This document shows positions 45,536-55,995 of a stretch of 63,677 bases of DNA, in pieces (the stretch's first letter is position 1; every line of letters starts with the position of its first letter). The stretch lies in NCBI GenBank assembly GCA_040901445.1, contig JBBDYQ010000017.1, positions 51,756-115,432 of the forward strand, in the 5' to 3' direction. The position numbers were made by a program, and so were the translations under genes. This DNA is from Thermoleophilaceae bacterium (GTDB lineage Bacteria; Actinomycetota; Thermoleophilia; Solirubrobacterales; Thermoleophilaceae). The notes below the pieces were generated by a model. It was not told the origin of the DNA. It ran no database searches and was given only the letters and a program-made list of their open reading frames with translations.

Positions 45536-45592
45536 TTGACACGCGCCGCGGAGGGGTAGTACCGTCGCGTACCACTCTGTACTGCGGCGTAC
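45536..45592 (+). promoter_or_regulatory. promoter region with four GTAC motifs at 10-bp intervals
   Basis: A perfect -35 TTGACA at 45536-45541 is followed by GTAC at 45559, 45569, 45579 and 45589, exactly 10 bp apart, so all four lie on one face of the helix. The first overlaps a weak -10-like TAGTAC. Each is part of GTACC or GTACT. The array lies 50-80 bases upstream of the first gene of the copper-protein locus and is a strong candidate for cooperative binding of a regulator. Which protein binds is unknown; the TetR gene at the end of the locus is one candidate. Confidence 0.55.
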
Positions 45593-45641
45593 CAGACCGC
45601 GCCGCGGGCGGGCCCAAATGCTTCTTCGGGAGGGGAATCAA

Positions 45642-47432
45642 TTGCGTGCCTTCACGTCTGTCGTGGCGATCGCGATCGCCGGCTTGGCCGTGCCCACGAG
45701 CGCGCTGGCCCAGAACGAGCAGCCTCCGGCGACGCCGGACCCGAACTTCGCGGCCACGATCATCCCGAAGCCGTGCAAGTTCGAGGGCAACGATCTGGTC
45801 GAGCGGAAGTCCTACGAGATCGAGGGCTGGGACCCGGCCAACGACTACGAGCGCTATCCGGGCTCGTGCCAGCGCATGCGCTTCGCCTACGGGCCCATCG
45901 TGGTCAAGCCCGGCCAGAACGACGTGCTCATCGGCCCGGTCACGATCGAGAAGCCCCTCCAGGACGGCTACATCACGCGCTTCAAGCCGAACCTCACCCG
46001 GATCGACGGCACCGTCCCGCCGGTCCACGAGGTGCACCTGCACCACGGCACCTGGCTGAACCTCACCGACGAGTACGGCAGCGGGCCCTTCTTCGCCTCC
46101 GGCGAGGAGAAGACGATCGCGCCGTTCCCGCGCGGCTACGGCATGCCGATCAAGGCCACCGACCAGTGGCAGCTGCTGTACATGGTCCACTCGGCCGTGC
46201 AGCAGCCGATGGAGGTCTACGTCACCTACGAGATCGACTTCGTGCCGCAGAGCAAGCCGGCCGCGGCCAGCATCAAGCCCGCCTATCCCCTGTGGCTGGA
46301 CGTGCGCCCCTCCGGCTACCCGGTCTTCAACGTCCAGCGGCCGTTCGGCGGCGCTGACGGCGAGTGCACCTGGCCGAAGGAGGAGTGCGCCGACTTCAAC
46401 TCCTGGGGCGAGACCGAGGTCGGCCAGGGTCAGCCGGGCAACGGCGTGGGCGAGGACCACCAGCTCCCGAGCGCGGGCGAGTCGTTCGGGAGGCACGACA
46501 ACTTCACCGGCGGGACGATCATCGGCCTGGGCGGCCACCTGCACCCGGGTGGCCTGCGCAACGAGGTCGACCTGATCCGGGGCGACCAGGAACAGCGGAT
46601 CTACACGAGCGATCCGACCTACTGGGACCCCGACGACAAGACGAAGGGAGGCGGCCCGCCCGACTCCTGGGACTTCTCGATGAGGGTCAACGGCCTGCCG
46701 CTCTACGGCGTCCATGTGGAGCCGGATGACGTGCTGCGCTCGAACGCGGTCTACGACACCACGATCCAGTCGACCTACGAGAACATGGGCATCGTGGTCT
46801 CGCTGCTCGTTCCCGAGGACGAGAACGGCGACAAGCAGGCACCGGGAGTGAACCCGTTCGAGGTGCCGGTGGACAGCACCCGCGACTGCGAGTCGGGCGG
46901 CGTCACGGCGACCCCTCCGACACTGTGCCCCAACGGCATGCTCGAGACGCATGGCCACTACAAGGAGAACGCCTACCGCGGCGGCCCCAGCGGCACGTGG
47001 ATGGCTGCCCCGAACGGCCCCCTCGCAGGCGAGACCGAGGAAGTCGGCATCGCGGACTTCCTGTATCTCCCGGGCGACCTCAGCACGGCGGGCACGCTCG
47101 GCGTGCCGAAGGTGCCGCTCGGGACCGACCTGCGCTTCACGAACATCGAGGGCGCCGGCATCCTGCACACGATCACCAGCTGCAAGTACCCGTGCCTCGG
47201 CCCGACGGGGGCCGCTTTCCCGATCAGCGACGGCGAGAGCAGCGCCGGGCGCCCGGTCGAGATCGACTCCGGCCAGCTCGGCTTCTCGGTGCCGGAGATC
47301 AGCGGGGCCAAGAACGAGCTCTCCTGGAGCATCCCGGTGACGGAGGAGGAGGGCTACCGGTCCGGCGAGACCGTCACCTACTTCTGCCGCATCCACCCGT
47401 CGATGCGCGGTGCGTTCGAGGTGAGCGAGTAG
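45642..47432 (+). CDS. secreted copper protein: PHM-like His clusters plus C-terminal cupredoxin
   Basis: A 596-residue exported protein. A TTG start six bases after GGGAGGGG gives a clean signal peptide (MRAFTSVVAIAIAGLAVPTS then ALAQ). The body has His clusters reminiscent of the two-copper monooxygenases PHM/DBH: VHEVHLHHGTW (His129, 132, 134, 135), MVHSAVQQPM (His183), GGHLHPGG (His299, 301) and METHGHYKENAYRG-like LETHGHY (His437, 439). The last 110 residues form a cupredoxin with type-1 copper ligands His509, Cys582, His585 and Met588 (FCRIHPSM). A copper oxidase or hydroxylase is inferred; the overall family is not one I can name. Confidence 0.75.
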   Translation: MRAFTSVVAIAIAGLAVPTSALAQNEQPPATPDPNFAATIIPKPCKFEGNDLVERKSYEIEGWDPANDYERYPGSCQRMRFAYGPIVVKPGQNDVLIGPVTIEKPLQDGYITRFKPNLTRIDGTVPPVHEVHLHHGTWLNLTDEYGSGPFFASGEEKTIAPFPRGYGMPIKATDQWQLLYMVHSAVQQPMEVYVTYEIDFVPQSKPAAASIKPAYPLWLDVRPSGYPVFNVQRPFGGADGECTWPKEECADFNSWGETEVGQGQPGNGVGEDHQLPSAGESFGRHDNFTGGTIIGLGGHLHPGGLRNEVDLIRGDQEQRIYTSDPTYWDPDDKTKGGGPPDSWDFSMRVNGLPLYGVHVEPDDVLRSNAVYDTTIQSTYENMGIVVSLLVPEDENGDKQAPGVNPFEVPVDSTRDCESGGVTATPPTLCPNGMLETHGHYKENAYRGGPSGTWMAAPNGPLAGETEEVGIADFLYLPGDLSTAGTLGVPKVPLGTDLRFTNIEGAGILHTITSCKYPCLGPTGAAFPISDGESSAGRPVEIDSGQLGFSVPEISGAKNELSWSIPVTEEEGYRSGETVTYFCRIHPSMRGAFEVSE

Positions 47433-47459
47433 ATGCGGCCGCGAAGGGAGGGACCGCCC

Positions 47460-49268
47460 ATGATCAGGTGGAGCCGGTCGTGGCCTCAGCAGTGGGAGGG
47501 ACTCCCGGTCGACGTCCTGCCGTGCTCCAACGACGAGTTCCTGCCGTTCCCGCCGACCGCGAGGCAGATCGCGGTGATGGACCTCCAGAACCGCGAGGTG
47601 GAGCGCTGGCGACGGCGCTTCGGCATGAGCCGTCGCCGCTTCGTGCGCACGTCCGCGGCCATGGCGATCGGCTTCTGGGCCATCGACACCGTGATGGCCG
47701 GGAGGTGGGGCAGCTACGCCTCGGCGCACAACACGCCGACGGTGGACGCATGTGACCTCGAATGGGCGGGCCGGGAGGGCCTCGAGACGCTCGAGAACCT
47801 GCCCGGGGAGTTCATCTTCGACATCCAGTCCCACCACGTGGACCCGGAGGGCGACTGGCGGGCCACCAACCCGGCGATCATGGCCTTCTTCGCGGCCGTG
47901 TGGCCGCAGGCGTCGGCGGCCACCGGCGGGCGGCCCGCGCTGCGCGAGGACCAGAGCATCCGCGGCGGCGGCGCGGGCGAGATCGACCCGATCGAGAACC
48001 TCTCCCGCTTCCACTACATGAAGGAGCTGTACCTCGACTCGGCCACCACGATGACGGTGCTCTCGTGCGTGCCCACCTCGCCGGACACGAACAACCCGCT
48101 GCCGCTGGCCGAGGCCGCCGCGACCGTCTACACCGCGAACGAGCTGGCGAACTCCCAGCGCGCGGTCATGCATGCGTTCGTGATGCCCAATCGCGGCTCG
48201 GCCGGCATGACGGGGAGTGACCCGACCGACCCCCTCAACCAGCGCAAGCCGACCAGCGAGCCCTGGCCCGACGGCCAGGCGCCGCGCCCGCTCTATCTCG
48301 ACGACGAGCTCGAGCTGATGGAAGTCCGCGCCCACCAGTACGAGGACATCCTGCGCGGCTGGAAGACCTACTGCGCGTGGGGCGACGTCCCGCACGCGTC
48401 GGGCTGGCAGCTCGACTCCGACGTCGGCCTGGAGTTCCTGGCGAAGGTCGCCGAGGTCAGCGGGAAATATCCGAAGGTCCCGCCTCTGATCGCCACGCAC
48501 AAGGGGTTCGCGCTGCCCGGCTTCGACCAGCGCGGCGCCGCGCCGCGCGACGTCGGGCCGGCCGCCAAGCAGAACCCGGGTGTGCGCTTCATGATCTACC
48601 ACTCCGGCCACGACCTCTTCGCCGGCTCGATGGAGGACTACGCCGGTGACGAGAAGGTCAGCTCCTCCGACCGCTCGGTCGACGCTTTCATCAAGAGCCT
48701 GCGGGAGAACGACTGGGACGCCTCCCACTTCAAGGACGCCGGCAAGGCGTTCGGCAACGTGCCCAACGTGTGGGCCGAGCTCGGGTCGGTGTGGCGCGAG
48801 ACCATGGGCGATCCCAACGACAGCGTGCACCTGCTCGGCAAGCTGATCAAGCACGTCGGGCCCAAGCGGATCGCCTGGGGCACCGACAGCCTCTGGTACG
48901 GGTCGCCGCAGTCCGAGATCATCGCCCTGCGCAAGCTCGAGTTCTCCGACGAGGCGAAGGAGCTCTACAACCTGCCCTATGGCCTCGATGGCGACGTGGA
49001 GGACCCGACGCAGCCGGCGCCCAACTCGGCGCGCACGATCCGCAACGGCATCCTCGGGCGCAACGCGGCCGACGCCTACAACATCGATCCGGACGCGCAG
49101 CGCCACGCCATCCAGTGCGACGCGGTCAACGGGCTGCGCAAGTCGGACTACCTGAAGGACATCGGCGACCCCAAGGAGACGGCGCCGCTCGCGTCCAACA
49201 AGGTCATCGGCGCACGCACGCGCCGCGAGATCCTGAAGGGCCTGGCGGAGAACCCGTGGGCGCCATGA
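47460..49268 (+). CDS. Tat-exported amidohydrolase-family protein
   Basis: A 602-residue amidohydrolase-2-like TIM-barrel protein. A long N-terminal region of about 56 residues precedes a Tat signal SRRRFVRTSAAMAIGFWAID. The barrel shows HHVDPEGDW, IATHKGFALPG, YHSGHDLFAG and the late-strand metal Asp in IAWGTDSLWYGSP. The family covers decarboxylases and hydrolases with one metal. The ATG at 47460 is preferred because of AAGGGAGGG just upstream; an ATG directly after the previous stop would add nine residues. Export of a folded metalloenzyme fits a shared extracytoplasmic pathway with the copper proteins. It overlaps the next gene as ATGA. Confidence 0.8.
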   Translation: MIRWSRSWPQQWEGLPVDVLPCSNDEFLPFPPTARQIAVMDLQNREVERWRRRFGMSRRRFVRTSAAMAIGFWAIDTVMAGRWGSYASAHNTPTVDACDLEWAGREGLETLENLPGEFIFDIQSHHVDPEGDWRATNPAIMAFFAAVWPQASAATGGRPALREDQSIRGGGAGEIDPIENLSRFHYMKELYLDSATTMTVLSCVPTSPDTNNPLPLAEAAATVYTANELANSQRAVMHAFVMPNRGSAGMTGSDPTDPLNQRKPTSEPWPDGQAPRPLYLDDELELMEVRAHQYEDILRGWKTYCAWGDVPHASGWQLDSDVGLEFLAKVAEVSGKYPKVPPLIATHKGFALPGFDQRGAAPRDVGPAAKQNPGVRFMIYHSGHDLFAGSMEDYAGDEKVSSSDRSVDAFIKSLRENDWDASHFKDAGKAFGNVPNVWAELGSVWRETMGDPNDSVHLLGKLIKHVGPKRIAWGTDSLWYGSPQSEIIALRKLEFSDEAKELYNLPYGLDGDVEDPTQPAPNSARTIRNGILGRNAADAYNIDPDAQRHAIQCDAVNGLRKSDYLKDIGDPKETAPLASNKVIGARTRREILKGLAENPWAP

Positions 49269-51112
49269 GGATCCGCGCGGCGATCGGCACAGCCGCAGCC
49301 GCGGCCGCGCTCCTCGCGCCGGGCGCCGCCTCCGCACAGGCGGCCACGTGCGCGCCGGCGGAGCACGCCGGCGGGGACTGGCCGTTCTACAGCGGCACGC
49401 TCGACGGACACCGAACGCAGCCCGCGGAGACCACGATCGGCACGGACAACGTCTCGGACCTCGGCCTCGCCTGGCAGCTCGAGACTCCGGACGGGGGCGT
49501 GATCCATTCGACCCCGACCGTCGCGGGCGGCTGCGTGTTCTTCGGGACCGACCTCGGAACGGTCACCGCCGCGAACGCAGACACCGGCGAGGTCGTGTGG
49601 ACCAGGAAGCTGAGCGAGAGCAGCGGAAGCTCCTACTTCGAGGGCGCGGGGATCGTGGGCGCCCCGGCGATCGCCGACGGGCTGGTCTACGTGGGCGCGA
49701 CGACCGACACGGCCTCGGTGCTGTCGGCGCTCGACCACGCCACCGGCGAGGTGGTGTGGGCCAGCGTCGTCGACGAGGACCCGGGTGGCGGCCTGGATTC
49801 GAGCCCGGTGCCGTTCAACGGCATGATCTTCCAGGCGTTCAAGGGCGACGAGTCGAGCAACCACTCCAACCCCGGGTTCGTGTTCGTGGACGCCTCGCGG
49901 GAGGGCGGGGGCGAGATCCTCGCCAAGACCCACGTCATCCCGGCGGCGGACTTCGACGCGGGCGACCGCGGCGGCTCGATCGTCAACACGCCGGCCGTGG
50001 ACCTCGAGCGCAAGCTGATCTTCGCCGGCACGGGCAACCCGGCCAGCCCGAGGCAGAACCCGCGGACGAACTCGTTGCTGAAGATCGACGCCGACCCCGT
50101 CTCGGCCACGTTCGGCGAGATCCTGGCGACCCATCGCGGCACGTCGGACAGCTATCCGGCTCCGCAGGACGTGGACTCGCCCGCGTGCATGAGCGACCTG
50201 CAGTGGCCGATCGGGCGCTACACGTGCGCGCAGTTCGACTTCAACTTCCTCGCCTCACCCGTCATCTGGGAGCACAGCGACGGGCGCCCGCTCTTCGGGG
50301 AGCTGCAGAAGTCGGGCGTGTTCACGACGGTTGACCGCGAGACGATGGAGCAGGTCTGGCAGGTCACGCTCGGCGTTCCCTGCTTCAGCTGCAACCTAAG
50401 CTCGAGTGCGGCCGACGAGAACGGGATCTACGTCGCGCTGACCGGTGGCAACCTCTACTCCCTGAACAGGGACACCGGCGCGATCCAGTGGGCGGCTCCG
50501 CTGACCGGCTCCCTCCACTACAACGGCGTCAGCGTCGCGAACGGCGTCGTCTACAACGTGAACGACCTCGGACTGCTCCAGGCATTCGACGCCTCCGACG
50601 GCACGCCGCTGCTGGCGCATCCGTTCGCGCAGGACACCGGGACGCCGATGGAGGACATCGGCAACTCGAGCGGGCTGTCGATCGCACGCAACAGCGTGTT
50701 CGTGACATCCCGGTCGGGCAGCACCAGCACGCTCTTCGCGTTCAAGCCGGGAGCGGACGGCGGTGGCGACCCACCTCCGGGCGGAGAGCCGGAGCCTCCC
50801 GGCGGTGGCGAGCTCCCGCCGCTCCAGGGAACGATCGCAACCGGCCCCGGTGCCACCTACTACGGCTACCTGACGCCCGTGATGGCCACCCAGGTGGGAG
50901 GTCCTTTGAGCTACACGAACGGCGACGCCGTCCGGCACGACGTGGTCGCGCGCGACAGAGACCCCGATGGGCAGCCGCTCTTCAAGAGCGAGCTGGCCTC
51001 GCTCGGCCAGACGGTGCCCGTGAACGGCCTCGACAGCGTCGAGTCCGGGACGACCTACGAGTTCTTCTGCAGCCTCCATCCGGGGATGCAGGGAGAGCTG
51101 ATCGTGCGATGA
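49265..51112 (+). CDS. secreted PQQ-type beta-propeller fused to cupredoxin (copy 1)
   Basis: A 615-residue exported protein. The signal peptide (about 1-25) ends SAQAA. A quinoprotein-like eight-blade propeller follows (about 30-490): GGDWPFYSGTLDGHRTQP, blade motifs such as ADTGEVVWTRKL and ATGEVVWASVV, and the conserved GVPCFSCNLSS. After a Pro/Gly-rich linker the last 105 residues form a cupredoxin with His558, Cys602, His605 and Met608 (CSLHPGM, the short amicyanin-like loop). It resembles polyvinyl-alcohol dehydrogenase, but with a copper domain in place of cytochrome c. The expected role is dehydrogenation of an alcohol with electron exit through copper; PQQ binding is not proven. Confidence 0.82.
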   Translation: MRIRAAIGTAAAAAALLAPGAASAQAATCAPAEHAGGDWPFYSGTLDGHRTQPAETTIGTDNVSDLGLAWQLETPDGGVIHSTPTVAGGCVFFGTDLGTVTAANADTGEVVWTRKLSESSGSSYFEGAGIVGAPAIADGLVYVGATTDTASVLSALDHATGEVVWASVVDEDPGGGLDSSPVPFNGMIFQAFKGDESSNHSNPGFVFVDASREGGGEILAKTHVIPAADFDAGDRGGSIVNTPAVDLERKLIFAGTGNPASPRQNPRTNSLLKIDADPVSATFGEILATHRGTSDSYPAPQDVDSPACMSDLQWPIGRYTCAQFDFNFLASPVIWEHSDGRPLFGELQKSGVFTTVDRETMEQVWQVTLGVPCFSCNLSSSAADENGIYVALTGGNLYSLNRDTGAIQWAAPLTGSLHYNGVSVANGVVYNVNDLGLLQAFDASDGTPLLAHPFAQDTGTPMEDIGNSSGLSIARNSVFVTSRSGSTSTLFAFKPGADGGGDPPPGGEPEPPGGGELPPLQGTIATGPGATYYGYLTPVMATQVGGPLSYTNGDAVRHDVVARDRDPDGQPLFKSELASLGQTVPVNGLDSVESGTTYEFFCSLHPGMQGELIVR

Positions 51113-52923
51113 GGAGGACGACGATCATCCCGGCCGCCGCCGCGGCGGCCCTGCTGCTCGCGGCTGCCGCGCCGGCATACGGCCAGGCGCCGCCGGCGTG
51201 CTCCGAGACGGACCACCCGGGGGGCGAGTGGCCGAGCTACGGCCATGACCTCTCCAACACCCGCTCGCAGCCGGAGATGGAGGCGGTCGGCGCGGCCGAG
51301 GTCGGATCGCTCGGCGCGGCGTGGGTCCACGAAGCCCCCGGCGCCATCAACAACACGCCGATCGTCACCGGCGGCTGCATCTTCGTCGCGTCGTCCGACG
51401 GCACTGTGTCGGCGCTCGACGCCGACGATGGCTCCGGCATCTGGTCGACCGAGCTCGATCCCGGGCAGGCGGCCTTTGGCGGCGGGCTCGTGGGCTCCCC
51501 GGCGGTCACCGCCGACTCGGTGCTGGTCGCGATCAACCGCGAGGGCTCGCCGTACGTCGCGAGCCTCGACCGCGCGACCGGCGAGGAGCGCTGGAGGACG
51601 GTGGTCGACGAGCAGCCGCAGTCGGGCATCAACGCCAGCGTCGTGGTCCACGACGGCCTGGCCTTCGTCGGCTTCTTCGGCAGCCCGGCGCCCGGCACGG
51701 AGCCGGAGCGCGGCGGCTACGTCCTCATCGAGGCCGCCACCGGCGCCATCGCCGCGAAGGGCCACGCGATCGACGACGAGTCCTTCGAGCAGGGCTACGC
51801 CGGCGCCGGGAGCTGGTCCACCCCCGCGATCGACCCCGAGGCGGGCTTCGCCTACGTCGGCACGTCGAACCCGCACAACCCCCAGCTCGAGCACCCGCGG
51901 GCCAACTCGCTGATCAAGGTCGACCTCAACCGCGACAGCGCGGACTTCGGCGAGATCGTGGCCTCCTACAAGGGCCGGCCGGACACCTACCTGCCCGGCC
52001 TGGCGGACCAGCCCGCCTGCGACACGGCGCCAGACGTGCACTACGTGCCGCCCTTCAGCCTCACCTGCCTGCAGATCGACCTCGACTTCGGCGCCTCGCC
52101 GACCCTGTTCACCGACGCCGCGGGCAAGCAGCGGCTCGGCGGGCTCCAGAAGTCGGGGGACTACCACGTCGTGGACCCGGCCGACATGAGCGAGGTCTGG
52201 CGGCAGACGGTGGGAATCCCGTGCCTCGGCTGCAACGCCGCCTCCCCCGCCGCCGCCGACGGGACGGTCTTCACCGCGGCCGGCCCGCCGGGCCAGTTCT
52301 TCGCGCTCGACGGCGCGTCGGGCTCGGTCAAGGGCGTGGGGCACCTGACAGGGCCCACGACCTACAACGCGGTGAGCGCATCGAACGGCCTCGTGTACGT
52401 CGTGGACTCCGCCGGGTTCCTCAACGTCTTCGATGCGAGCAACGGCGTGCAGCTCGTCAAGCGCCCGCTCACGAGTGACACCGGGACCCCGATGAGCACC
52501 GCCAGCAGCGCGAGCGGGGTGGCCATCGCGCGCGACACCGTGTTCGTCGCCGCCTCGGGCTACGTGATCGCGCTCAGGCCGGGCGAGGGGTCCTCACCCC
52601 TTCCGGGCCTTCCCGGGCTGCCCGCGCCCGGCTCGGGCTCGGCCATCCTCACCGGCCCCGGTGCGGCGGCCTACGGCTACCTCACGCCGGTGATGGTCGT
52701 CGAGCAGGGCGGCTCGCTCTCCTACACCAACGTCGACGCGGTGCAGCACGACGTCGTCGCGCGCGACAGGGCCCCCGACGGCCAGCCGGTCTTCAAGAGC
52801 AGGCTGGCGAGCCTGGGCGAGACGGTGCCGGTCGAGGGGCTCGAACGGACGGAGTCGGGCACGACGTATCCGTTCTTCTGCAGCCTTCACACCAACATGC
52901 AGGGACAGCTGATCGTGGAGTGA
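51109..52923 (+). CDS. secreted PQQ-type beta-propeller fused to cupredoxin (copy 2)
   Basis: A 604-residue paralogue of the preceding gene with the same plan: signal peptide (about 1-25), propeller with GGEWPSYGHDLSNTRSQP, blade motif ATGEERWRTVV, the shared GIPCLGCNAAS, a Pro/Gly linker and a cupredoxin with His547, Cys591, His594 and Met597 (CSLHTNM). The pair evidently arose by tandem duplication and has diverged moderately in the propeller and little in the copper domain. It overlaps copy 1 as ATGA, so both are made together and may form a heterodimer or act on different substrates. Confidence 0.82.
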   Translation: MRRTTIIPAAAAAALLLAAAAPAYGQAPPACSETDHPGGEWPSYGHDLSNTRSQPEMEAVGAAEVGSLGAAWVHEAPGAINNTPIVTGGCIFVASSDGTVSALDADDGSGIWSTELDPGQAAFGGGLVGSPAVTADSVLVAINREGSPYVASLDRATGEERWRTVVDEQPQSGINASVVVHDGLAFVGFFGSPAPGTEPERGGYVLIEAATGAIAAKGHAIDDESFEQGYAGAGSWSTPAIDPEAGFAYVGTSNPHNPQLEHPRANSLIKVDLNRDSADFGEIVASYKGRPDTYLPGLADQPACDTAPDVHYVPPFSLTCLQIDLDFGASPTLFTDAAGKQRLGGLQKSGDYHVVDPADMSEVWRQTVGIPCLGCNAASPAAADGTVFTAAGPPGQFFALDGASGSVKGVGHLTGPTTYNAVSASNGLVYVVDSAGFLNVFDASNGVQLVKRPLTSDTGTPMSTASSASGVAIARDTVFVAASGYVIALRPGEGSSPLPGLPGLPAPGSGSAILTGPGAAAYGYLTPVMVVEQGGSLSYTNVDAVQHDVVARDRAPDGQPVFKSRLASLGETVPVEGLERTESGTTYPFFCSLHTNMQGQLIVE

Positions 52924-52937
52924 AAAAGGGAGAGGCC

Positions 52938-53435
52938 ATGACGTTCAGGACAGTCGACGAGCTGCTCACCCGCCAGATGACCGGGGCTGCTGGCCCGCCC
53001 GCGGCGGAGCAGCTCGATCTGCGCCTCGTGCGGTTCGCGCGCGGCGTGGCGGTGTACGAGATGCCGCTTCGCGGCGAGGTGTGCGACCCGTCGGGCGCCG
53101 TGGCGAGCGGCGTGCTCACCACGCTGGCCGAGGCGGCGATGACGGCCGCCGCCACGACCACGGTCGCGGACGGCCGCGACGAGTCGCCGCTGGTGCTCGA
53201 GCTGTGCGCGCGCTTCGACCGCGTCGTGGAAGGGGACGAGTCGCCGTTGCTGCGGGCCGAGGCGGTCGTGATGCGCACCGACTCGCGGTCTGCCCGGGTC
53301 GAGGCGGAGGTGCATTGCAACGGTGTCCGCGTCGCCACCTTCGAGGCGACCTACACCCGGGAGCGCCGCACCCGCCCCCTCGACCCGCTGCCCGGCCTCG
53401 AGCCGGCCGGGGAGCGCTCGCTCGCCCACGCGTAG
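52938..53435 (+). CDS. PaaI-type thioesterase
   Basis: A 165-residue single-hotdog protein of the PaaI/YdiI type. It has FARGVAVYEMPLRGEVCDPS, GAVASGVLTTLAEAAMTAAA with the central helix and an Ala/Ser-rich nucleophile region, and a later RVEAEVHCNGVRVATFEATY. It would hydrolyse a small or aromatic acyl-CoA in the cytoplasm. The ATG is chosen for its AAGGGAG ribosome site; a GTG overlapping the previous stop would add six residues. It probably belongs to the copper-protein transcript and suggests that products of extracellular oxidation are later handled as CoA thioesters. Confidence 0.82.
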   Translation: MTFRTVDELLTRQMTGAAGPPAAEQLDLRLVRFARGVAVYEMPLRGEVCDPSGAVASGVLTTLAEAAMTAAATTTVADGRDESPLVLELCARFDRVVEGDESPLLRAEAVVMRTDSRSARVEAEVHCNGVRVATFEATYTRERRTRPLDPLPGLEPAGERSLAHA

Positions 53436-53478
53436 CCCAGCCCGCACCCGCGTGGCGCCCGGGCCTAAGCTCGCTGCC

Positions 53479-54165
53479 GTGGCGCCGCAGGTGAGCTCCC
53501 TCTTCCTCAACCCCCTCGAGCCGGTGCGGGGCGGCCCCAGTGAGGCCATGTCGGCGTCCCAGCGGGGGCGGATGCTCGACGCGGTGACCCGCGCCGTGGC
53601 GAAGAAGGGCTACGCGGACGTCACGGTTGCCGACGTCGTCCGCATCGCCGGCGTCTCGCGGAGGACCTTCTACGAGCGGTTCACCGACAAGCAGGACTGT
53701 TTCCTCGAGGCATACGAGGCCGGCACCAAGGCGCTGCTCGGCGGCATGGCCGCAGCCGTGCGCGACCTCGGTGAGGACCCTCACTGGCGGGACATCCTCG
53801 AGGTCGCGGTCGGCAACTATCTCGGCACGCTCGCCGAGCATCCGGACTTCGCGCGGACGTTCCTGATCGACGTGCTGGGCGCCGGGCCGGTGGCGGTGGA
53901 GCGGCGGCGGGGCGTGTACGGGCAGTTCGTGGACCAGTACCGGTTCCTCGCCGCGCGCACGGCCGAACAGGAGCCCGAGCTCGCCGAACTGCCCGACGTG
54001 TACCTGAAGGCACTCGTCGGCGGGATCAGCGAGCTCGTCCAGGGGCACATCCTCGAGCGCGGCGCCGCCAGCCTGATGGAGCTCGCCCCGGTCCTGATCC
54101 AGCTCGTCGTCGCGGTCCTCCAGGGCGCAGGGGGGCAGGCGCCCCCGCGAGGACGCCCGGCATGA
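53479..54165 (+). CDS. TetR-family transcriptional regulator
   Basis: A 228-residue TetR regulator. The HTH lies at about 35-85 (AVAKKGYADVTVADVVRIAG, VSRRTFYERFTDKQDCFLEA), followed by a TetR C-terminal helical domain. The GTG start lies seven bases after TAAGCT, so it may have its own leaderless promoter. As the only regulator at the end of the copper-protein gene run it is the best candidate for controlling that locus. It abuts the convergent hypothetical gene directly. Confidence 0.9.
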   Translation: MAPQVSSLFLNPLEPVRGGPSEAMSASQRGRMLDAVTRAVAKKGYADVTVADVVRIAGVSRRTFYERFTDKQDCFLEAYEAGTKALLGGMAAAVRDLGEDPHWRDILEVAVGNYLGTLAEHPDFARTFLIDVLGAGPVAVERRRGVYGQFVDQYRFLAARTAEQEPELAELPDVYLKALVGGISELVQGHILERGAASLMELAPVLIQLVVAVLQGAGGQAPPRGRPA

Positions 54166-54600: not shown

Positions 54601-55995
54601 TTATCGCGCCAGCAGGCAGGCCAGCTGCGGCGTGCCCACGGGCGCCCGCGGCAGCTGGGCCGACGCCTGCAGCGGTGACAACCACGTGCCGATGCTCTCC
54701 GACTCCGGCGCGCTCGCGTCGAAGCGGTAGATGTCCAGGCCGCGCGCCATGTCGTTGCCGTAGAGGTAGAACGAGCCGTCCTCCTCGATCCGCGGCGTCT
54801 TCGCCGACCACGTGTCCGCGTCGCCGTGGCGGTACGAGCCGACCTGCCGCAGGCCCTCGCCCTCGGCCAGGCCGGAGATGTCCACCACGCGCACGCCGCC
54901 GTCGTAGAACGCCACGTTCATGATGCCGGCGTCCTCGTGGATGTCGAAGACGTGTGCGGTGCAGGTGCTCGTCGGGTTGTTGGTGAGCCCCACCTCGTCG
55001 ATGTTCCAGTAGCCCACCTTCTCCGGGCTCTGCTCCTTGTCCCCGGTGATGTCGTAGATGTGGAAGCCGCCGCTGGGGCAGATCGGCCCGCCGGCGGCGC
55101 CGGCGAACTCGTCCTCCACGAACAGGTACTCGCTGTCGCCGACGGTCACCGGGTCCGACTGGTGCCAGACGTTGATCGCGGGGTCGAGGAAGCTCGTGAC
55201 GATCTCCGGATTGGCGGGATCGGTGCTGTCGATGATCACGCCCTGGGAGAGCGCGGCCGAGTACGCGCGCGCGCCGTCGTCGCTGAAGGTGATGTCGTGC
55301 GACTCCGTGCCCAGCCCGGGGCGCGTGGGCAGTGACAGCTCGCCCACGGTGTGCGGCGCGGACGGATCGCTGATGTCGATCACCTCGATCGCGGGCTGGA
55401 GCGACGTGATGAGGTCCGAGTTCGAGTTGTACATGTAGTTCCCGCTGGGGTGCACGGACTGGTTGTGCGAGCCCTGCGGCACCTCGGCGAACGAGACCGT
55501 CCGCGGGCTGGACGGGTCCGTGACCTCCACGATGAAGCTGCCGTTCTTGCCCTCCTCGCTGCCGTCGTCCTTCTGGACGTCGAATCCCAGCGCCTCGGCC
55601 TCGCGGTAGCAGGTGGAGTCGCCGTCGCCGAACGTGTCGGAGGTGTAGGTGGCGAACACCCGCCCCGGCTCGTCGTCCTGGCGGAACACCTGGACGTCGC
55701 CCTGGGTCACGCCGCAGTCGTAGATGCCGGCGACCTGCGCGTTCTGCGGGTCGGTTATGTCCACGATGTGGAGCCCGTTCTCGTACGAGCCGGCCAGCGC
55801 GTACTCGCGCCCGGAGATCGTGGCGAACTCGATGTCGGTGCCGAAGTTCGGCGTACCGTCAGCGTCTGCCGCCTCGTAGGGCAGGTTCTCGACGAAGCTC
55901 ATGTTGGGGCTGTGCTCACCCTCCTGCGCAGCCGCGGCGGCGCACGGCACGAGGCCGAGGGCGAGCGTCAGGCACACGACGGCGCGATGACGCAT
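54601..55995 (-). CDS. secreted LVIVD-repeat beta-propeller protein
   Basis: A 464-residue exported protein with signal peptide (about 1-23). Repeated LVIVD-type blades include YENGLHIVDITDPQNAQVAG, PAIEVIDISDPSAPHTVGEL, GVIIDSTDPANPEIVTSFL and GGVRVVDISGLAEGEGLRQV. Each blade ends in a V-D-I-(S/T)-D-P motif. Cys residues are scattered and likely form disulfides. LVIVD proteins are extracellular and mostly uncharacterised; binding or scaffold roles are assumed. A GGGAGGAA ribosome site precedes the ATG. It is near the copper locus but on the other strand. Confidence 0.85.
   Translation of the reverse strand: MRHRAVVCLTLALGLVPCAAAAAQEGEHSPNMSFVENLPYEAADADGTPNFGTDIEFATISGREYALAGSYENGLHIVDITDPQNAQVAGIYDCGVTQGDVQVFRQDDEPGRVFATYTSDTFGDGDSTCYREAEALGFDVQKDDGSEEGKNGSFIVEVTDPSSPRTVSFAEVPQGSHNQSVHPSGNYMYNSNSDLITSLQPAIEVIDISDPSAPHTVGELSLPTRPGLGTESHDITFSDDGARAYSAALSQGVIIDSTDPANPEIVTSFLDPAINVWHQSDPVTVGDSEYLFVEDEFAGAAGGPICPSGGFHIYDITGDKEQSPEKVGYWNIDEVGLTNNPTSTCTAHVFDIHEDAGIMNVAFYDGGVRVVDISGLAEGEGLRQVGSYRHGDADTWSAKTPRIEEDGSFYLYGNDMARGLDIYRFDASAPESESIGTWLSPLQASAQLPRAPVGTPQLACLLAR

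Follow-up and report, generated by a model that had tools for sequence, protein, structure and literature searches.

A recurring bacterial gene set joining a PHM/DBH-fold protein to cupredoxins, quinoprotein-type propellers and a predicted exported metallohydrolase

Gene layout of the locus

The 63,677-nucleotide stretch analysed here (the window) is part of one contig (JBBDYQ010000017.1) of a Thermoleophilaceae bacterium, whose genome of 3.5 Mb is 100% complete. Between positions 45618 and 52923 it carries four co-directional genes, MON, AMH, PQQ1 and PQQ2, with a thioesterase gene and a TetR gene next in line. The original prediction had described these six genes, the first four of them encoding exported proteins. 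All six are present on the + strand at about the coordinates given there, and the first four products all have export signals. The core genes are as follows.

MON, 45618..47432, + strand: signal peptide, PHM/DBH-fold domains at ~68-422, C-terminal cupredoxin at ~465-604
AMH, 47460..49268, + strand: predicted Tat-exported Amidohydro_2-superfamily protein with metal-site motifs D-x-Q-x-H, WK, HKG, YHSG and WGTD
PQQ1, 49265..51112, + strand: signal peptide, 8-bladed quinoprotein-type beta-propeller, linker, cupredoxin (H558, C602, H605, M608)
PQQ2, 51109..52923, + strand: paralogue of PQQ1, ~44% identical, with the same layout (H547, C591, H594, M597)

The genes are closely packed. AMH truly overlaps PQQ1, and PQQ1 overlaps PQQ2, each time in an ATGA, and two further junctions are close: the best start of AMH is ATG 47460, behind GGGAGGG and 27 nt from MON, which it does not abut, and that of the thioesterase gene is ATG 52938, 14 nt past PQQ2. 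All three cupredoxin proteins of the window (MON, PQQ1 and PQQ2), and hence three of the four exported proteins, share the His...Cys-x2-His-x2-Met motif that had been noticed at the outset, and PQQ1 and PQQ2 both terminate in FFCSLHxxMQG. This H...C-x2-H-x2-M layout, together with profile and fold matches, is that of amicyanin and plastocyanin; unlike those proteins, the cluster cupredoxins are fused to the putative monooxygenase or to a propeller, and are free-standing in some loci.

A PHM/DBH-type fold with a built-in cupredoxin

The window MON protein has no match in Pfam or NCBIfam. The Cu2_monooxygen and Cu2_monoox_C profiles (PF01082/PF03712) find nothing in it, and one relative reaches 14.3 bits against a cut-off of 23; because no match passes these cut-offs, we regard MON as a new branch outside the curated Pfam families. 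Its predicted structure is far more telling. An AlphaFold2 model (pLDDT 78.7, pTM 0.81, catalytic strands mostly at ~90 or higher) retrieved chains of PHM and DBH as hits 1-29 in Foldseek (E 4e-8), and was aligned by VIA with DBH at Z 15.7 (256 residues, 3.6 Å) and with PHM at Z 15.6 (243 residues, 3.8 Å). The next fold, at Z ~8, was of the PNGase F type, a structural cousin of the PHM/DBH fold. Residues 465-604 match cupredoxins in VIA (NirK domain Z 8.5, plastocyanin 7.8, amicyanin 6.5), and the C-terminal cupredoxin has a profile match to amicyanin with an E of 8e-5. The early identification of this protein as PHM-like with a cupredoxin end is thereby borne out, and the His, Cys and Met residues follow a conserved copper-ligand plan within the two folds.

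On the basis of their motifs, their order and the profile alignment with DBH, the predicted ligands are H142, H143 and H191 for CuH, H307, H309 and M390 for CuM, and H517, C590, H593 and M596 for the type-1 copper. Their order matches that of PHM, with His-His plus His for CuH and His-x-His plus Met for CuM. Relatives of MON were collected from named genomes and from a set of 396 genomes within the phylum, of which 23 contain one; 30 relatives were aligned. Across this alignment and that of the trimmed catalytic region, the five positions H142, H143, H307, H309 and M390 do not vary, H191 is nearly invariant (at least 90%), and H140 too is conserved in at least 90%. When the catalytic-region profile was compared with the PDB, DBH was the sole sensible match, at a non-significant E of 1.7; in this alignment, which is supporting only, GHlHpGG falls on LHTHLTG and the GDvLxxnavYdT strand falls on GDVLITSCTYNT, such that the profile and DBH coincide exactly across H-x-H-x-x-G and GDxLxxxxxYxT.

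PHM and DBH are the textbook copper monooxygenases of animals, and both take their electrons from ascorbate. MON shares with them the two-domain fold, the HH...H / HxH...M ligand plan and an extracytoplasmic location. It differs in its ~12-16% identity to them, in its fused cupredoxin, in its bacterial/archaeal occurrence and in its partners, which are propellers and an amidohydrolase. A PF03712 search of the genome for a canonical copper monooxygenase elsewhere gave no match and is uninformative, since the controls were equally silent.

Two taxonomic labels among the collected loci should be read with care. Three tandem MON-like genes lie on a short contig (L009, JAIVGT010000270.1) that is labelled Halobacteriales, a label that may be wrong, and the same may be true of the label 'Bifidobacterium breve' on L007.

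A predicted Tat-exported metallohydrolase

Against PF04909 (Amidohydro_2) the window AMH protein scores 23.9 bits, below the cut-off of 26.4. The same profile is matched by six of six close relatives (best 2.8e-9) and, over its full length and above cut-off (37.9 bits), by one distant relative. The conserved motifs D-x-Q-x-H, W-K, H-K-G, Y-H-S-G and W-G-T-D correspond to the metal site of the amidohydrolase superfamily, to which we assign AMH on the strength of profile and motifs. AMH thus shares with Amidohydro_2 the Q/H, K, H, H, D metal motifs, and differs in that Gln replaces the first His of HxH, as it does in all 20 aligned rows, and in its predicted export by the twin-arginine translocation (Tat) route. 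The twin-arginine motif is kept in relatives and is preceded by a conserved leader of ~55 residues, and these two features mark AMH as a Tat substrate by sequence. In most of the distant relatives the leader segment ends in a lipobox-like ACT/GCL.

Separately, widespread amidohydrolases that carry a twin-arginine leader with the lipobox-like ACT/GCL, and QxH for HxH, were observed away from MON (L085-L098). Around two distant AMH relatives the genes are ordinary catabolic ones, which give no clue to a substrate.

The genes recur together in other genomes

A tblastn comparison across neighbourhoods found MON, AMH and a propeller together in five further loci (L002, L004, L043, L045 and L053), with differing gene orders. 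A sixth, L084, holds AMH and a propeller on a contig that stops ~144 bp past AMH. Several loci encode the cupredoxin separately, in a gene adjoining the propeller, in place of the fused one. Wherever a sampled actinobacterial genome has a close AMH relative, that relative adjoins a propeller and, except where the contig ends first, lies within a MON cluster. Close AMH relatives occur in 5 of the 396 genomes of the phylum, and four of these five also hold MON, adjacent to AMH; with MON in 23 of 396 genomes, the chance of at least four such coincidences under independence is P = 4e-5. Because the source genome is one of the four, the unbiased count is three of four.

The set also extends in part beyond this phylum. 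Among 350 Chloroflexota genomes two contain MON, and in one of these a close AMH lies on another contig, beside a cupredoxin end. In the other (locus L003), which lacks AMH, MON and a propeller-cupredoxin are fused in one frame of 1405 aa with a Pro/Gly linker. MON proteins with partners form a clade of ten with support of 98/98, the sole member without partners in view (L044) being a second MON copy in a genome that has the full cluster. Since the set recurs in other genomes, it reflects more than chance; the recurring gene set is real and is spread over Actinomycetota and partly Chloroflexota. Of the two outcomes that the original prediction had named as refuting it, a predicted structure that fails to place the His, Cys and Met residues in copper sites and families that never co-occur elsewhere, neither arose. 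A PADLOC search gave no link to defence, and a search of plasmids returned no MON and a distant amidohydrolase only.

In the open-licence literature we found no paper that joins a copper monooxygenase, PQQ (pyrroloquinoline quinone), an amidohydrolase and a cupredoxin, although subscription journals could hold one. As far as this literature shows, the gene set around the new PHM/DBH-superfamily branch is undescribed, as had been surmised. Clusters for polyvinyl-alcohol dehydrogenase and for kendomycin, in which a PQQ-like enzyme lies near a thioesterase, were considered as parallels and rejected. The PQQ-like gene of the kendomycin cluster is reported to be dispensable for kendomycin B, and neither an amidohydrolase nor copper is mentioned there (PMC8708025).

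A possible link to the plant SURNod19 family

The profile of the plant stress-up-regulated nodulin 19 family, SURNod19 (PF07712), matches 10 of 28 MON relatives. The window MON is not matched, and other cupredoxin-bearing MON proteins are below the cut-off of 25 bits or unmatched. Short relatives that lack the cupredoxin scored as follows.

L032:1171-2208: short MON relative without cupredoxin, SURNod19 33.7 bits
L058:9082-10299: short MON relative without cupredoxin, SURNod19 27.8 bits
L031:1168-2157: short MON relative without cupredoxin, SURNod19 22.2 bits, below cut-off

In L032 the matched stretch (217-338) includes the predicted CuM ligands H261, H263 and M335. SURNod19 and the short relatives L032 and L058 are alike in a profile match over the stretch that holds the CuM HxH and Met, and unlike in that the match is limited to the second domain, the comparison being made by Pfam profile. 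On this basis the plant family appears related to MON, and the matches of the short relatives suggest that SURNod19 is a relative of dicopper monooxygenases. A signal peptide is predicted for NOD19 of Arabidopsis, whose function is not known (PMC10326430).

A proposed cupredoxin-fed monooxygenase system

It seems to us an even bet that the locus encodes an extracytoplasmic PHM/DBM-type dicopper monooxygenase system, in which cupredoxins feed the electrons and a metallohydrolase acts afterwards. Once loaded with copper, the CuM site of MON (H307/H309/M390) would activate O2 for the hydroxylation of a substrate outside the membrane, and the CuH site (H142/H143/H191) would relay electrons. The fused cupredoxin would pass electrons to CuH, standing in for ascorbate. 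Cupredoxins that are fused to a propeller, or encoded next to one, would belong to the same relay, and MON would have the propeller-cupredoxin proteins as its physical partners and probably as its redox partners too. Judged by sequence, electrons could run either out through copper or into the monooxygenase. AMH, presumably exported in folded form via Tat, might then act on the product, or on a related molecule, by hydrolysis or decarboxylation.

Several observations weigh against this proposal. The closest relative of MON (L002:6132-7919) keeps the dicopper ligands and has lost the Cys, His and Met of the type-1 site (FSRLRRSKTG versus FCRIHPSMRG), so the cupredoxin of MON does not provide a working copper site in every case, and the short relatives do without a cupredoxin entirely. 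Thirteen MON proteins of the sister clade stand alone, and a genome with MON and a propeller (G396) has no close AMH. The propellers, moreover, lack most PQQ ligands. Because they look like empty quinoproteins, the source of the electrons is the weakest link of the mechanism.

Alternative explanations

In a first alternative, the genes would form a two-step set resembling PAM. MON would hydroxylate an alpha carbon, the propeller or AMH would cleave the intermediate, and the cupredoxins would just feed electrons. In animals PHM acts in sequence with PAL, a six-bladed zinc beta-propeller lyase, and the fusion in L003 does place a PHM-fold enzyme in one chain with a beta-propeller, while the metal site retained by AMH could plausibly serve in hydrolysis or as part of a lyase step. 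The model of PQQ1 (pLDDT 75.6, with the cupredoxin part at lower confidence), however, is an 8-bladed W-motif propeller. It superposes on quinohemoprotein and lanthanide alcohol dehydrogenases (402-426 residues, Z ~36, 2.4-2.6 Å) and just as well on BamB, tetrathionate hydrolase and designed propellers, and is thus of the quinoprotein/BamB type as opposed to that of PAL. No PAL-type zinc site was recognised in it, none having been specifically sought. We consider this alternative unlikely.

We also judge it improbable that MON and the propellers serve to bind, store or buffer copper outside the cell, or to protect against copper stress, with no catalysis involved. The many copper sites within one operon would fit such a role, as would the behaviour of the apparent plant relative: bean Nod19 is a validated target of miR398 that is down in copper deficiency and up in copper excess (PMC3882225). 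Yet exactly the ligands of PHM/DBH, the CuM Met among them, persist in MON sequences that otherwise diverge, AMH belongs by sequence to an enzyme family and has a conserved metal site, and none of the genes examined was recognised as a known gene for copper export or sensing.

The pathway put forward in the original prediction ran from copper monooxygenation through PQQ-dependent dehydrogenation, with electrons leaving via cupredoxin, to hydrolysis and CoA-linked processing inside the cell. In its favour, the propeller aligns over ~415 residues with the alcohol dehydrogenases named above. Eleven cluster propellers were aligned with three authentic XoxF-like enzymes of the same phylum: all eleven retain the pocket Asn and Lys, ten keep the Trp floor, and in most of them Glu takes the place of the catalytic Asp. 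All eleven, however, lack the vicinal Cys-Cys of the disulfide, the Arg and the pocket Glu, and have the catalytic Asp replaced by Glu, Gln or Lys; the window PQQ1 is also the one without the Trp. Profile matches to PQQ_enz_alc_DH (TIGR03075) and to 'acido-empty-quinoprotein group A' (TIGR04528) are present in all eleven and are weak, far below cut-off. Compared with true quinoprotein and quinohemoprotein alcohol dehydrogenases, then, the cluster propellers share the eight blades and a Z of ~36, and differ in a largely lost PQQ pocket and in a C-terminal cupredoxin in place of cytochrome c.

The genome itself points the same way. No PqqC was found in it, whereas five control genomes, all with authentic XoxF-like enzymes, gave 330-341 bits in the same search, and nothing exceeded the cut-off in eight cluster-bearing genomes; a PqqE search of the source genome gave a weak radical-SAM match only and is uninformative. 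Because most of the PQQ pocket is lost and no PqqC was found in the genome, quinoprotein dehydrogenation by the propellers is unsupported. Neither the thioesterase gene nor the TetR gene is a conserved partner. The observation of the gene set is confirmed and the pathway drawn from it partly supported; taken as a whole, that pathway is rather improbable, although PQQ scavenged from outside might possibly bind in the altered propeller site. Finally, a chance operon of unrelated neighbours, which the housekeeping-type genes flanking the locus (lipA upstream) and the unconserved thioesterase and TetR genes might suggest, is very hard to credit: the set recurs across several families of actinobacteria although its gene order and strands are shuffled, MON and a propeller are fused in Chloroflexota, and the partner-bearing loci share a single MON clade.

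The proposal of a cupredoxin-fed monooxygenase has a fuller form, which we offer tentatively, at somewhat less than an even chance. Here an ascorbate-independent PHM/DBM-type system would be wired by cupredoxins to the propeller and completed by a Tat-exported metallohydrolase, and plant SURNod19 would by descent be a dicopper monooxygenase.

Downstream genes and upstream elements

Three further features adjoin the core genes.

Thioesterase-like hotdog (4HBT) protein, 52938..53435, + strand: close behind PQQ2
TetR-family regulator, ~53549..54165, + strand: behind the thioesterase gene
Four GTAC(C/T) boxes, 45559..45593, no strand assigned: exact 10-bp spacing, immediately upstream of MON

No thioesterase relative was found in any neighbourhood examined. 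Because none occurs near the relatives of MON, AMH or the PQQ proteins, the thioesterase probably does not belong to the conserved system. Relatives of the TetR protein were likewise not found as cluster partners, the matches being partial or distant in position; the only full-length relative, ~6 kb from a lone MON in G621, was not taken as linkage. Since neither gene recurs as a partner, the CoA-linked step inside the cell that had been attached to the pathway is unsupported. The TetR gene, whose start is preceded by a 113-nt gap, may encode a local regulator of the locus.

The boxes upstream of MON provide three overlapping matches to GTAC-N6-GTAC, the sole ones within the window, and could form a helically phased operator. 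They show no conservation in relatives. In L002 and L005, TetR-type palindromes were seen at most ~130 bp upstream of MON, in the promoter region (ACCGTTCGGT in L002, with the near copy AACGATCGGT in L005); palindromes of this type are absent from the window. A gene for a secreted LVIVD-repeat protein (window 54601-55995, minus strand) converges on the cluster, and a distant relative of it (24%) lies near a MON in L044.

Implications

A large bacterial relative of PHM and DBH, found in soil actinobacteria, that has a built-in blue-copper domain and conserved partners suggests that a dicopper centre may be fed with electrons in a different way, and bacteria may use this system to oxidise substrates outside the cell without ascorbate. 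The MON family also suggests a source of extracellular enzymes that hydroxylate C-H bonds. If the SURNod19 proteins of plants are indeed copper monooxygenases, this would fit the control of the bean protein by miR398 and by copper supply (PMC3882225).

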